A DNA stretch of 51,520 nucleotides. It comes from Dysgonamonadaceae bacterium (GTDB lineage Bacteria > Bacteroidota > Bacteroidia > Bacteroidales > Azobacteroidaceae). The first letter of the stretch is position 1. Every line of letters starts with the position of its first letter. The position numbers were made by a program, and so were the translations under genes. The notes beneath the pieces were generated by a model. That model ran no database searches and had not been told where the DNA came from. It was given only the letters and a program-made list of their open reading frames with translations. The stretch is taken from assembly GCA_031256775.1 (NCBI GenBank), contig JAIRPX010000281.1:1-51520 (forward strand), in the 5' to 3' direction. This document shows positions 13,501 through 20,344 of the stretch, one piece after another.

Positions 13501-13531
13501 TTCGTATATTTGCTTTTTTATATTAACTTTG
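13501..13531 (+). promoter_or_regulatory. Promoter upstream of the DUF4105-secA unit
   Basis: The -7 box TAACTTTG is at 13524-13531. TTCG at 13501-13504 lies 19 bp upstream as a weak -33 element. The ATG is 21 bp after the -7 box. Confidence 0.6.
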
Positions 13532-13552: not shown

Positions 13553-14740
13553 ATGAAATATTTTTTAGTAATTTTTCTGTTATTCAATATTTTCTTTGCA
13601 AAAGCTCAGACAAATTATGACAATTTGCAGGTGAGTTTGCTGACTGTTGCGCCACGTTCAAGCGAAATATATACCATCTACGGACATACGGCGCTCTATC
13701 TGTATGATCCTGTGTTGAAAATAGATACAGTATTAAACTGGGGTACGTTCAACACCGATATTCCGTATTTTCTGTTCCGCTTTATCGCCGGAGAAACTGA
13801 TTATTTTTTATCGGCGTCTTCCGGTTATGTCTTTTATTATCTTTATACAAAAGAAAATGTTACCGTAACCAAGCAGGTTTTAAATATTCCCAACGAAAAA
13901 AAAGAGGCGTTATATAATATGCTGATGTATAACCTTGCGCCTGAAAATTGCGAATACCGCTATAATTTTCTTTTTGACAACTGCACTACCCGTCCCCGCA
14001 ATATCATTGAACAGTTTTGTGGAGGGAAACTGCTGTATCCCGAACAGGCAAAAAAGCCTACATTCAGAGATTTAATACATTCCTGCACAAAATTTTATCC
14101 GTGGATGTCCTTTGGTATCGACCTGATCATTGGCAGTGGCGCCGATTCATTACTGTCATTTCGTCAGGAATTGTTTTTGCCTGAAAATCTGATGCGCGCA
14201 CTGGATCGTGCAACAGTAATTTCCGATAACGGAACAAAATATCCGGTCGTTACATCTTCGGAAATAATTATCCATTCATCCATTGATGAAATTTCCGAGC
14301 CTGAATATCCAAATTCTCCTTTTGTAACAGGAATTGTTATTTTACTGATATATTTAGTTTTAGCAGTTACGAAAGATGCAGGGAAGCTGATATGCAGGAT
14401 TCCTTTTGCCTTTTTGTTTCTGACGGCAGGGTTGGCAGGATGCTTAATTGCATTTCTATCCTTTATTTCGTACCATCCTTGTACACAATATAATTGGAAT
14501 ATTGTTTGGTTGCATCCGTTTCATTTCTTAGGATTTGCCGGATTCTTTTTCAAAAAATCTTATTTTCTTATTCGCTGGTATCATTGGATTAATTTAGCAC
14601 TTTTGTTGGTTCTATTGTTGGCTTGGTTTTTGATACCTCAACAATTAAATCCGGCTAATGTCCCATACATGCTGTGTTTGGGCGTGGTTTCAGCAAAACA
14701 GGTAATTAAAAGTAAAAAATGGATAAATATAGGAAAATAG
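13553..14740 (+). CDS. DUF4105 (Lnb N-terminal periplasmic domain) membrane protein
   Basis: A signal peptide (MKYFLVIFLLFNIFFAKAQ) is followed by a periplasmic DUF4105 domain (about residues 22-250), with YTIYGHTALYLY and the Cys/Asn-rich FDNCTTRPRNIIEQFCGGK. The His and Cys placement recalls papain-like Lnb/NlpC folds, so a peptidase-like or lipoprotein-modifying activity is possible but unproven. Four hydrophobic spans occupy about residues 262-390. The related Lnb proteins transfer or cleave acyl groups on lipoproteins in Gram-positives; extending that here is inference only. The 3' end overlaps the next gene by 22 bp, which indicates co-translation with the PafA-like protein. Confidence 0.85.
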   Translation: MKYFLVIFLLFNIFFAKAQTNYDNLQVSLLTVAPRSSEIYTIYGHTALYLYDPVLKIDTVLNWGTFNTDIPYFLFRFIAGETDYFLSASSGYVFYYLYTKENVTVTKQVLNIPNEKKEALYNMLMYNLAPENCEYRYNFLFDNCTTRPRNIIEQFCGGKLLYPEQAKKPTFRDLIHSCTKFYPWMSFGIDLIIGSGADSLLSFRQELFLPENLMRALDRATVISDNGTKYPVVTSSEIIIHSSIDEISEPEYPNSPFVTGIVILLIYLVLAVTKDAGKLICRIPFAFLFLTAGLAGCLIAFLSFISYHPCTQYNWNIVWLHPFHFLGFAGFFFKKSYFLIRWYHWINLALLLVLLLAWFLIPQQLNPANVPYMLCLGVVSAKQVIKSKKWINIGK

Positions 14741-16323
14741 AAAAATCTCGTTCACTCGTCTACTCGTTCACTTGTTTACTCATCTACTCAATCCCGATGC
14801 AGGCACAGCCGGTAATCGAAACACCACGACTTGTCGTCAGCATAGTCGTTGACCAGCTAAGGGGTGATTATTTACAGTATTTCAGTTCCGTATATGGCGA
14901 AAAAGGATTCAAACGTTTGATGAACGATGGTTTGAACTACCACAATGTTGAGTTCGGATTTCCTAACCTTAACGAAGCCAGCTCAATAGCAACTGTTTAT
15001 ACAGGAACTTATCCTTTCTCTCATGGAATATGCGCCAGCGAAAAATTCGATGTCGAACATAACCGGGCAGAATCAATTGTTGCAGATAATAATTATCTTG
15101 GGAATTACACTTCCGACAATTTTTCGCCTTTATCCCTGTTGAGTTCCACACTTGGCGACGAGCTTAAAATTGCTACCGGAGGAAATGCTGCTGTTTTTTC
15201 CGTAGCCCCTGAAGCAGAAGAAGCTATACTTTCGGCAGGAAGATACGCCAATGCCGCTTTCTGGTTAGACAATTACAACGGCAAATGGGCTACAACTACA
15301 TATTACAAGGACATTCCATGGTATATAGAGCGATTTAATGCCACAGAAGCTGTCGGCAATTTCACTGAAAAAACCTGGTCTCAGGCATATTCACATTATA
15401 TTGGTTTTCCATATTATTCCAAAACGGGAAGTTTTTTCACCTATCGTTTCGGTAAATCCGAAAAAGACCGTTACATTAAAATCAAACAAACGCCGCTTAT
15501 CAATGCCGACGTCACCGCTCTTGCCGGTAAATTTCTGGAACATGGCGATTTTAACAATCGAAACTGCCCCAATCTGCTTATGCTTACATATTATCTCGGC
15601 AATTATAAATTTGGCGACAACATTAACGAATTTGGCTATGAATTGCAGGACGCTTATTATTGCTTGGATAAAGAACTTGAAAAACTGTTTGATATTATTG
15701 ATAAAAAAGTGGGGATGCGCAATGTGCTTGTTATGTTAACTTCCACAGGTTATTACGATTACAACACGCGATTTCCCAATGGATACGAGCCATTAGGCAT
15801 ATTTTACCCGAATCGCTGTACTGCTTTGCTAAATATGTATTTAGCAGCAACTTACGGACAGGGGAACTGGGTGGAAGGCTATTTCAATAATCAGATTTAT
15901 TTAAATAGAAAATTAATTGAAAATAAACAGCTTAACCAGAAAGATTTTATTTCAAGTGCCGCCGAATTTGTAGCTCAATTTAGCGGCATACAGGATGTTA
16001 CTACTTTAGGACAGTGGCTGGTAGACGACGCCGGTCGCTCTGCCGCATTTCGTCGCGGTATGAATAAAAAATACAGCGGCGATCTGTTCATCGAATTACA
16101 GCCCGGATGGATTACGGCTACCGACGCCAATTCAAAGAACGGGCAAAAATATGAACGCAGTACGGCTATTTTGTGTCCTTTGTTTTTTTTAGGAGAACAT
16201 ATAAAAAAGGAACATGTGTATCGAAAAGTAAAAGCGACGGAAATTGCGCCCACGCTATCGTTTATTTTAAGGATTCCACCTCCTAATGCAGCCAAAGATA
16301 TGCCTTTACAGGAATTTTATTAA
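14719..16323 (+). CDS. PafA/alkaline-phosphatase-superfamily protein lacking catalytic residues
   Basis: Secreted 534-residue protein that aligns along its length with PafA-type phosphatases: VVDQLRGDYLQYF, the YTGTYPFSHGI segment, AGRYANAAFWLD, LQDAYYCLDKEL, NNQIYLNRKLIE, and ATEIAPTLS near the end. Nearly all catalytic positions differ. The nucleophile motif TGPGHAS reads EASSIAT. The DxxGH metal motif reads YKFGDN. TADHG reads TSTGYY. The late HG ligand stretch has no histidine. Only the Asp in VVDQ remains. I infer a pseudo-enzyme with a structural or binding role. The signal peptide ends near MQAQ. It overlaps the DUF4105 gene by 22 bp and lies 54 bp before secA. Confidence 0.82.
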   Translation: MDKYRKIEKSRSLVYSFTCLLIYSIPMQAQPVIETPRLVVSIVVDQLRGDYLQYFSSVYGEKGFKRLMNDGLNYHNVEFGFPNLNEASSIATVYTGTYPFSHGICASEKFDVEHNRAESIVADNNYLGNYTSDNFSPLSLLSSTLGDELKIATGGNAAVFSVAPEAEEAILSAGRYANAAFWLDNYNGKWATTTYYKDIPWYIERFNATEAVGNFTEKTWSQAYSHYIGFPYYSKTGSFFTYRFGKSEKDRYIKIKQTPLINADVTALAGKFLEHGDFNNRNCPNLLMLTYYLGNYKFGDNINEFGYELQDAYYCLDKELEKLFDIIDKKVGMRNVLVMLTSTGYYDYNTRFPNGYEPLGIFYPNRCTALLNMYLAATYGQGNWVEGYFNNQIYLNRKLIENKQLNQKDFISSAAEFVAQFSGIQDVTTLGQWLVDDAGRSAAFRRGMNKKYSGDLFIELQPGWITATDANSKNGQKYERSTAILCPLFFLGEHIKKEHVYRKVKATEIAPTLSFILRIPPPNAAKDMPLQEFY

Positions 16324-16377: not shown

Positions 16378-19300
16378 ATGGGTTTTAACGAGATTTTATC
16401 AAAATTATTTGGGAATAAATCCCAGAGGGATTTAAGGGAAATAGATCCTTACGTAAAAAAAGTACAGGCTGTTTATCCTGAAATCGAACAGTTGTCTAAC
16501 GACGAATTGCGCCAAAAAACGCAGACAATCATGCAAAAAATACATGACGCAGTTGAAGAAGATACAAAAAAGATTGACGAATTGAAAGCAAGTATCGAAA
16601 GTCTTGAACTGGAAGAAAGAGAAAAGGTTTGGGCTGAAATTGACAAAATAGAAAAGGGCATCCGCGAAAAACAGGAGAAAATTTTAGACGAAGTTCTGCC
16701 TGAAGTGTTTGCTATTGTAAAAGACACCGCCCGCCGTTTCAAGGAAAATGAAAAAATCATCGTAACGGCTACCGATTTCGATAGAAAACTGGCTGTTACT
16801 CATGATTTTGTTTCCATCGACGGAAATAATGCCGTTTATTTAAACAAATGGAAAGCAGGTGGCAACGAAATAACTTGGGATATGGTACATTACGACGTTC
16901 AGCTCTTTGGCGGAACAGTACTTCACAACCCTAATCCCAAAAAATATGAAAAAGATACGGAAGATCCCAAACTAAGTAAACGGGTGCGCGGATATATTGC
17001 AGAAATGGCTACGGGAGAAGGAAAAACATTGGTAGCTACTCTTCCCGTTTTTCTTAATGCACTGACTCACAGGGGAGTTCATGTCGTTACCGTTAACGAC
17101 TATCTGGCTAAACGCGACTCAGAATGGATGGGACCTCTATACATGTTTCACGGTTTATCCGTTGACTGTATTGACAAGCATCAGCCCAATTCCGACGCTC
17201 GCCGCAAAGCTTATGAAGCCGATATTACTTTTGGCACAAATAATGAATTTGGTTTCGATTATCTGCGCGATAATATGGCAATTAATCCGAAAGATTTAGT
17301 ACAGCGCGAACATAATTACGCCATCGTTGACGAAGTTGACTCTGTTTTAATCGACGACGCCCGCACGCCCCTGATCATTTCAGGTCCTGTACCAAAAGGC
17401 GAAGATCAGCTGTATGAGGAATATCGCAGCCGCGTAGAGCATCTGGTCAGCGTTCAGAAAACACTTACCAACAAACTGTTGTCGGATGCGCGACAAAAAA
17501 TAGCATCTACTAATCAGGATGACCAGAAAGAAGGATTTGTCCTTCTGTTCCGCTCTTTTAAGGGAATGCCTAAAAACAAAGCTCTTATTAAGTTTCTAAG
17601 CGAACAGGGAATAAAAGCCAATATGCTTAAAACGGAAGAATATTATATGCAGCAGCAAAACAGGGAAATGCATATTATTACCGATCCCCTCTATTTCGTT
17701 ATTGATGAAAAAAATCATTCTATTGAACTTACCGACAAAGGGATAGATCTTCTTACAGGAAATTCCGACGACCCCCAATTCTTTGTCCTTCCGGATATTG
17801 GAATACAGATTGCCGAAATTGAAAATGCAGGAGGAAGCGATGAAGAAAAACAGGTTAAAAAAGACGAACTGCTGCAAAACTATGCCGTTAAATCAGAAAG
17901 GGTTCACACTATCAACCAGTTGCTGAAAGCTTACTGTCTCTTTGAAAAAGACGACGAATATGTAGTTATCGACAACAAGGTGAAGATTGTGGACGAACAA
18001 ACCGGACGTATTATGGAAGGTCGCCGGTATTCCGACGGATTGCACCAGGCTATTGAGGCTAAAGAGCGCGTACAGGTGGAAGCTGCCACACAAACTTTTG
18101 CAACAATCACCTTGCAAAACTATTTCCGCATGTATCATAAACTTGCGGGAATGACAGGAACGGCGGAAACAGAAGCTGGCGAATTTTGGAATATCTACAA
18201 ATTAGACGTAGTGGTGATCCCAACCAACCGACCAATCGACCGTCGCGATATGAACGACCGCATCTACAAAACAGCCCGCGAGAAATACGCGGCAGTAATC
18301 AACGAAATTGTTGCACTGCGCGATCAGGGGCGTCCGGTTCTGGTAGGTACAACTTCCGTTGAAATATCTGAACTTCTAAGCAGAATGCTTACAATGCGTA
18401 AAATATCTCATAATGTATTGAATGCCAAACTGCACCAGAAAGAAGCCGAAATTGTGGCGCAGGCGGGACAGACAGGAACCGTAACTATTGCAACAAACAT
18501 GGCTGGACGTGGAACCGACATCAAACTCTCGCCGGAAGTGCGGGCAGCTGGCGGTCTGGCTATCGTTGGTACGGCAAGACACGAATCGCGTCGTGTTGAC
18601 CGCCAGTTGAGAGGACGATCCGGACGACAGGGAGATCCTGGATCTTCAGTGTTTTTTGTTTCGCTCGAAGACGAACTGATGCGTTTGAACGCTTCGGAAC
18701 GTATAGCAGGCATGATGGACAGATTTGGGTTCAAAGAAGGCGACGTTCTGGAACACAGCATGTTGAACAAAGCGGTAGAACGCGCTCAAAAAAAGGTGGA
18801 AGAAAATAATTTCGGCATCCGGAAACATTTGCTGGAATACGACGACGTGATGAACTCGCAGCGCGAAGTAATCTATACGCGCCGCCGCCATGCTTTGATG
18901 GGAGAAAGAATCGGTTTGGACGTCCTGAACATGCTTTATGACACATCCGGCGCTATTGCCGAACAGTTTGTCGAAACGAATGATTATGAAGGACTGAAAT
19001 TTGAACTGTTTAAAACAATGGCGCTGGAAGTACCTTTTACTGAGGATGCAATAAAAGGCATGAAGCCTGAAACCATTACGGAAACAATTTTCGAAGCTTC
19101 ATTAGACAGTTTCAAACGAAAAACCGACAGAATGGCGCAAATAGCTCAGCCTGTTATAAAAAGAGTATATGAAGAACAGGGCGACAGATATGAAAATATT
19201 GTTATTCCGGTAACGGACGGGAAACGGATGTATAACATCGTATGCAACCTGAAAGAAGCCTACAATTCTGATTCAAAAGGAATTGTGAAATCGTTTGAAA

Positions 19301-19746
19301 AAGCGATTCTGCTTCATTCCATCGACGAATCATGGAAAGAGCATCTGAGGGAAATGGACGATTTGAGACATTCTGTTCAAAACGCAAGTTACGAAAATAA
19401 AGATCCTTTGCTGATTTACAAACTGGAATCTTTCGATCTTTTCAAAAAAATGGTAGATGAAATGAACCGCAAAGCCGTCGCCGTCCTGATGCGCGGGCAA
19501 ATTCCCGTACAGGAACCGGAACAGGTTCGCCAGGCTACGCCGGAAAGAAAGACCGATTTCAGCAAATACCGTACACGGAAAGACGAGATTTCCGAAAGCC
19601 GCAGGGTGCAGGGAGAAGTTGCCGGACGCGACACCCGCGAACAGCAAAAAACCGCTCCTATTCGTGCCGAAAAAACTGTTGGGCGAAACGACGCATGTCC
19701 TTGCGGTAGTGGGAAAAAATATAAAAACTGTTGCGGCAGAATATAA
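16378..19746 (+). CDS. secA: Preprotein translocase ATPase SecA
   Basis: Motor of Sec-dependent export. Walker A-type motif [45 protein letters not shown] (DEAD-like motif plus preprotein-binding entry), [20 protein letters not shown], and the helicase arginine motif in [15 protein letters not shown] are all present. The C-terminal SEC-C zinc motif is [13 protein letters not shown]. The length of 1122 is longer than Escherichia coli SecA (901) and typical for Bacteroidota, which carry insertions around the N-terminal and preprotein-binding regions (for example about residues 50-105 and 355-520). A DUF4294 gene begins 4 bp after its stop. Confidence 0.98.
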
Positions 19747-19750
19747 ACAG

Positions 19751-20344
19751 ATGAAAATTCTGCAGTTTTTGTTTTTGATGTTTATCCTGTTACAGGTAAT
19801 AAACGTTCATGCGCAAAACGGCGACTATAAGGAAAACATACCTCCGTTTATACTTGAAAACGGAGATACTGTTAAAACGCTGGTTTTGAACGATATTTAT
19901 TTTTATCCAAATCAGATATTCGGTAATCAGGAAAATGATGCAAAATACAAAAAACTCGTTAGGGATGTAAAAAAAACTTTACCATACGCCAAACTTATTT
20001 ACGCAACTCTCATTGAAACGTATGAATATATGATGACTTTGCCCGATGACAAGGCGCGGGAAGAGCATCTCAAACTGATGGAGAAAGAATTGTTTGCAGA
20101 ATATAAACCGGCACTTAAAAAGTTAACCCTTTCGCAGGGAAAACTGTTAATTAAACTTATCGACAGGGAATGTAATCAGACTTCATACAACTTGTTGAAA
20201 GCTTTCTTAGGACCATTCAGAGCCGGTTTCTGGAACTTTTTTGCTGGAATGTTTGGCGCCAGCCTGAAATCAAGCTGGGATCCGGAGGGAAAAGATGCGG
20301 CAACAGAAAGAGTTATTGAATTAGTAGAAATGGGGGTACTGTAA
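19751..20344 (+). CDS. DUF4294 family secreted protein
   Basis: A 197-residue exported protein with signal peptide MKILQFLFLMFILLQVINVH cleaved after the AQ that follows. It belongs to DUF4294, restricted to Bacteroidota. Conserved-looking stretches are LNDIYFYPNQIF and the helical core KLVRDVKKTLPYAKLIYATL; LIDRECNQTSYNLLK and AGFWNFFAGMFG follow. An upstream in-frame extension to 19619 would run inside secA and place 44 residues before the signal peptide, so the ATG at 19751, 4 bp after the secA stop, is chosen. Function unknown. Its placement behind secA suggests an envelope or export role. It is the last gene before a repeat-filled convergent region. Confidence 0.85.
   Translation: MKILQFLFLMFILLQVINVHAQNGDYKENIPPFILENGDTVKTLVLNDIYFYPNQIFGNQENDAKYKKLVRDVKKTLPYAKLIYATLIETYEYMMTLPDDKAREEHLKLMEKELFAEYKPALKKLTLSQGKLLIKLIDRECNQTSYNLLKAFLGPFRAGFWNFFAGMFGASLKSSWDPEGKDAATERVIELVEMGVL

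Follow-up and report, generated by a model that had tools for sequence, protein, structure and literature searches.

A PafA-like gene between lnb and secA

The window is a stretch of 51,520 nucleotides from a Dysgonamonadaceae bacterium. The gene under study, whose product we call pseudo-PafA, lies on the forward strand between a DUF4105 gene and secA. Numbering of residues is that of the window's protein unless PafA is named.

13553–14740, forward strand: lnb (the DUF4105 gene); periplasmic permuted NlpC/P60-like domain followed by about five transmembrane helices
14719–16323, forward strand: pseudo-PafA gene, 534 amino acids; PafA fold without the catalytic site, proposed non-catalytic partner of Lnb
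14719–14740, forward strand: overlap of the lnb 3' end and the pseudo-PafA 5' end, 22 bases
14719–14805, forward strand: probable signal peptide, residues 1–29, cut near AQA/QP, without a lipobox (read from sequence)
14851–14853, forward strand: D45, equivalent of PafA D38 and the sole retained metal ligand; D in 42 of 45 orthologues
14974–14976, forward strand: E86 at the nucleophile position (PafA T79); R, E, K or A in this column of the clade
15601–15618, forward strand: N295 and D300 at PafA D305 and H309 (multiple alignment)
15745–15750, forward strand: T343-G344 at PafA D352-H353; a newly conserved T/S-G in the clade (T in 38 of 45, G in 41 of 45)
16144–16146, forward strand: Q476 at PafA H486 (multiple alignment)
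16378–19746, forward strand: secA, with SecA domains; conserved downstream neighbour in the operon clade, not in the fusion clade

The pseudo-PafA reading frame runs without interruption from the ATG at 14719 to the stop codon at 16321–16323, and adjacency to lnb or a short overlap with it recurs at orthologous loci. An earlier note on this DNA had described the gene as intact, signal-bearing and translationally coupled to the DUF4105 gene, and the 534-codon frame, the probable signal peptide and the 22-base overlap agree with that description. The signal stretch of the window's protein is weakly hydrophobic, with no segment over the threshold, and residues 1–31 have low pLDDT in the AlphaFold model; a similar N-terminal stretch opens nearly every orthologue. 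The gene is under purifying selection, with the signal peptide kept at a median pairwise identity of 0.40.

Pseudo-PafA is a whole-length homologue of the PafA/Phosphodiest fold family, as the same note had read it. The PafA structure (PDB: 5tj3) is matched over residues 30–532 (E value 2.4e-50), and the alk_phos_PafA model NF042991 over residues 29–532 with 296.5 bits, which does not reach its equivalog cut-off of 650; PF01663 (Phosphodiest) scores 64.7 bits, over its cut-off. Structure prediction, which had been proposed as a check, confirmed the fold: the AlphaFold model, built from an alignment of 38 orthologues, has a pLDDT of 87.6 and a pTM of 0.87, and it aligns to 5tj3 with a Z score of 47.0 and an rmsd of 3.2 Å over 486 residues at 28% identity.

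The product of the upstream gene matches PF13387 (Lnb_N, 64.6 bits) and PF25221 (5TMH_Lnb, 107.7 bits), both over cut-off. NF051878 gives 313 bits over residues 4–388, below its strict cut-off of 550, and such scores are also typical of most Lnb proteins outside the Bacteroides family. The catalytic His45 (GHTA) and Cys144 (DNC) are conserved in all 37 aligned operon Lnb sequences. According to two papers from 2026, the enzyme that N-acylates lipoproteins in Bacteroides is now known and bears the name Lnb, and one of the two equates Lnb with DUF4105 (PMC12994826; PMC13103446; both cite Armbruster 2024). The upstream DUF4105 gene is Lnb, the lipoprotein N-acyltransferase, which adds the third fatty acid to lipoproteins.

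Just upstream of lnb, at window positions 13524–13531, TAACTTTG fits by eye the Bacteroidota -7 promoter element TAnnTTTG, with no clear -33 element seen at the usual spacing. This motif suggests that transcription of the cluster may start just upstream of lnb.

The catalytic site is lost throughout the clade

PafA uses T79 as its nucleophile, D38, D305, H309, D352, H353 and H486 as ligands of two zinc ions, and N100, K162 and R164 as monoesterase residues. These positions were mapped by a multiple alignment of pseudo-PafA with 5tj3 and with homologues that keep all of the residues. Nine of the 10 are replaced in the window's protein, those of the monoesterase set by S107 (N100), E165 (K162) and E167 (R164), so that the Thr/Ser nucleophile, the two-zinc ligand set and the monoesterase residues of PafA enzymes are all wanting. 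The earlier claim that nucleophile and metal ligands have gone is correct except at the first metal Asp, D45, which is retained.

Whether the loss is common to the copies beside secA had been posed as a question, and it is: the site is lost in 45 of 45 members of the secA-locus clade. A 29-member subset keeps 0–2 of nine catalytic residues, and chance alone would yield N or D matches as scattered as these. Nine PafA homologues elsewhere keep nine of nine residues in the same alignment; the loss is therefore neither an alignment artefact nor the decay of one copy. Across the 45 orthologues, the columns of T79, N100, K162, R164, D305, H309 and H486 are more variable than 62–93% of columns, and variable former ligand columns in a conserved scaffold are the pattern expected of a structural role. 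Pseudo-PafA is thus predicted from its residues to be catalytically dead.

The possibility that nearby residues stand in for the ligands was rejected because the clade alignment contains no conserved His or Cys near the site. The sole clade-conserved His corresponds to H172 of PafA, a non-ligand residue, and the window's protein has Arg in its place.

Linkage to lnb and secA across Bacteroidales

Loci for the pseudo-PafA clade were taken from a survey of 247 genomes across Bacteroidales. Almost all operon-clade loci have lnb, pseudo-PafA and secA in this order on the same strand; the arrangement is broken in L039 and L053, both of one family, in which lnb is on another contig, and it is incomplete on a few contigs that stop short. 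Parabacteroides distasonis and Bacteroides finegoldii also have the trio in their RefSeq records, annotated as DUF4105, alkaline phosphatase family protein and SecA. The gene is indeed kept beside secA in many Bacteroidales families, as had been claimed, and its linkage to lnb is retained in many families at identities down to about 34%. Lnb is present in 45 of 45 genomes with an lnb-linked pseudo-PafA (42 of the operon clade and three of a second clade, f39) versus 71 of the 202 others (Fisher p = 6e-18, uncorrected for kinship).

Directly 3' of secA, the window encodes a secreted DUF4294 protein (PF14127) at 19619–20344; the listed start of this reading frame falls inside secA, and the likely start is a later Met that precedes the signal peptide. 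A locus-tag search of the literature returned only the uncharacterised PGN_1459, which adjoins secA (PGN_1458) and is a possible counterpart of pseudo-PafA. The main texts of essential-gene papers on P. gingivalis and B. fragilis do not mention the locus, and a literature search, whose scope did not include the Lnb discovery paper (Armbruster 2024), found no biochemical or genetic data on pseudo-PafA.

Lnb also occurs without this neighbor, at 20 of 20 non-Bacteroidales loci and, within Bacteroidales, at several loci that include the lnb-secA pairs of L139 and L140; in the genus to which the window belongs, a genome of 1.2 Mb (L138) keeps lnb alone. Pseudo-PafA is therefore not required for Lnb activity in general; it would be a lineage-specific partner and not part of Lnb chemistry everywhere. 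Some genomes of f39, the family that also contains the fusions described below, have the PafA-like gene and lnb unlinked (L175–L186). By eye, the unlinked copies of L175–L184 sit between genes for a HisB-like phosphatase and a MalY/PatB-like lyase, with lnb elsewhere. Some genomes carry a second, more divergent Lnb homologue in addition to the main one: G027 (L142, L143), G130, G160 and G238.

Evolutionary distances of pseudo-PafA follow those of Lnb with a partial correlation of 0.68 given SecA (reached in 0 of 2000 permutations) and those of SecA with 0.31 given Lnb. The Lnb value exceeded the SecA value in 93% of taxon resamplings, and this order is suggestive only. In a search for an lnb-specific surface, only L47, G128, T131 and N372 were frequent in the two lnb-linked clades and also rare in PafA homologues outside them, active and degenerate alike. 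Four shared residues are too few, so no interface was called. A candidate block, LLNMYLxAxYGxGxWV...YLNR, was rejected as an lnb-specific surface because other PafA homologues have it too.

Fusion of pseudo-PafA with Lnb

Pseudo-PafA adjoins lnb without secA at five f39 loci (L136, L137 and L191–L193). At least 18 distinct species in six genera of this Bacteroidales family carry Lnb and pseudo-PafA as a single reading frame of about 880–990 amino acids (L135, L187–L190, L196, L199–L202, L204, L205, L207–L209, L211, L213 and L214). Among the loci examined, no fusion with SecA was seen. The nine fusions that were scored keep 0–1 of nine catalytic residues. A sequence or assembly error was rejected as the source of the fusions because one frame is present in independent genomes of six genera, with identities down to approximately 30%.

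The hydrophobic segment at the fusion junctions (residues 396–414 in L135) is the former signal peptide, now a sixth membrane segment. With an extracytoplasmic N-terminal domain of Lnb, five helices and this sixth segment, the fused PafA domain would be placed in the periplasm. The AlphaFold model of a natural fusion, for which 18 natural sequences were used, has confident domains (pLDDT 84.6) in an arrangement that is not confident (pTM 0.59); such a pTM would be about that expected from two well-folded domains whose relative placement the model does not fix, and it speaks neither for nor against a fixed interface between them.

On a tree of 94 rows, the fusion label requires at least two changes, and fusion may thus have happened more than once. 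One branch (SH-aLRT 90) separates off the PafA homologues that belong to neither the lnb-linked nor the f39 set; the data are thus compatible with one common origin of the lnb-linked and f39 pseudo-PafAs, provided that the root is placed among the active PafAs. Replacements at the ligand sites differ between the two lnb-linked clades.

A probable non-catalytic partner of Lnb

Because pseudo-PafA travels with Lnb and, in some gut bacteria, is fused to it, it is probably a non-catalytic partner of Lnb and not of SecA. We consider it probable that pseudo-PafA, itself catalytically dead, serves Lnb as an accessory subunit in the periplasm. The fold, the clade-wide loss of the site, the conservation, the genetic linkage and the gene fusion were computed; physical association with Lnb, placement in the periplasm, a shared transcript and an effect on N-acylation are what we infer. 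Under this proposal, pseudo-PafA and Lnb would be made from one transcript, and pseudo-PafA would then be exported and held on the inner membrane beside the periplasmic catalytic domain of Lnb. There, its task might be to stabilise Lnb, to shape or protect the acceptor side of the enzyme, or to present it with the diacylated lipoprotein or the phospholipid donor. Hydrolysis of phosphate esters would have no part in the role.

An independent envelope function, with the linkage and fusion to lnb reflecting mere co-transcription of two periplasmic proteins, is unlikely. It would account for the unlinked copies in the fusion family, for the many degenerate PafA homologues outside any lnb context and for the lineages in which Lnb works without pseudo-PafA, but it fits poorly with repeated in-frame fusion of two domains that are both predicted to be periplasmic, with linkage that persists across many families to about 34% identity and with the fact that zero genomes with the lnb-linked form lack Lnb.

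The earlier note had suggested a structural role in export or in envelope quality control. A periplasmic factor that acts in SecA-dependent export or in the quality control of the envelope would agree with the position directly 5' of secA in nearly all operon-clade loci and in the two named gut species, and with L053, which keeps pseudo-PafA and secA side by side while lnb lies elsewhere. The wider survey does not support SecA as the partner, and we regard this reading as improbable, more so than an independent function: SecA is cytoplasmic whereas pseudo-PafA is predicted to be periplasmic, the f39 proteins adjoin or are fused with Lnb where secA is not adjoining, no SecA fusion was seen, the SecA partial correlation is the weaker of the two (0.31 vs 0.68), and lnb-secA persists without pseudo-PafA in L139 and L140. 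Only one sub-clade has the gene next to secA, and as a partner Lnb is more likely than SecA. Since pseudo-PafA occurs beside or fused to lnb without an adjoining secA, and zero SecA fusions were seen, its role fits lipoprotein maturation, on the periplasmic side of the inner membrane, better than export driven by SecA.

Least probable, by a narrow step, is a cryptic enzyme or ligand sensor whose old pocket would accommodate the head group of a phospholipid or some other ligand, or which would catalyse a reaction without metal; the retained D45, the newly conserved T343-G344 and the action of the lower-Z fold relatives ENPP6 and ENPP7 on phospholipid head groups speak for it, but the pocket consists mostly of columns on the variable side of the alignment, the replacements in it differ between the two lnb-linked clades, and the clade has no conserved His or Cys in place of the ligands.

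A tentative extension of the Lnb-partner proposal, which we hold to be possible yet doubtful, is that the N-acyltransferase of Bacteroidales is a two-component system, with Lnb and a dead phosphatase-fold subunit that would receive the diacylated lipoprotein or control the choice of donor, and that this pairing has been hard-wired by fusion in some gut lineages. If so, a pseudoenzyme would regulate N-acylation or lend it selectivity, and we know of nothing comparable in the Lnt, Lit or Lns systems.

Known relatives and other degenerate PafA homologues

Pseudo-PafA resembles the PafA alkaline phosphatase of Elizabethkingia (PDB: 5TJ3; NF042991) in whole-length homology, fold, signal peptide and scaffold residues but differs in its catalytic and ligand residues (nine of 10 replaced), its NF042991 score below the cut-off and its linkage to lnb. 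PhoK/SPAP and the ENPP phosphodiesterases share the superfamily fold (Z scores of 38.8 and about 25, respectively); unlike pseudo-PafA, these enzymes retain the full site for two metals together with a nucleophilic Thr or Ser. Bacteroides Lnb is related to pseudo-PafA by position, since lnb lies immediately upstream and, in several genera, forms one gene with the pseudo-PafA domain, whereas Lnb is an acyltransferase and the pseudo-PafA domain has an unrelated fold.

In Bacteroidales of the gut and mouth, lipoproteins carry much of the biology of the cell surface, and their third acyl chain shapes how the immune system recognises them. Lnb was reportedly first identified by Armbruster in 2024, and a pseudoenzyme that accompanies or is fused to it is a concrete candidate for an Lnb partner or regulator. 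Degenerate PafAs are common, which matters for counts of phosphatases; the "alkaline phosphatase family protein" annotated at the trio should not be counted as a phosphatase in surveys of phosphorus cycling.

Two loci (L108 and L109), in a family in which no Lnb was found, have a PafA homologue that keeps only D352 and H353 and lies a few genes from secA. More widely, L073–L112 (for example, L086, L087 and L111) are separate Bacteroidales PafA homologues with 1–6 of nine catalytic residues. Many of these have a conserved setting of their own, with gene identities read by eye: a YchF-like GTPase and an M14-carboxypeptidase-like secreted protein upstream on the same strand and PcrB-like, phosphopantetheinyl-transferase-like, GldD-like and GldE-like genes on the opposite strand.
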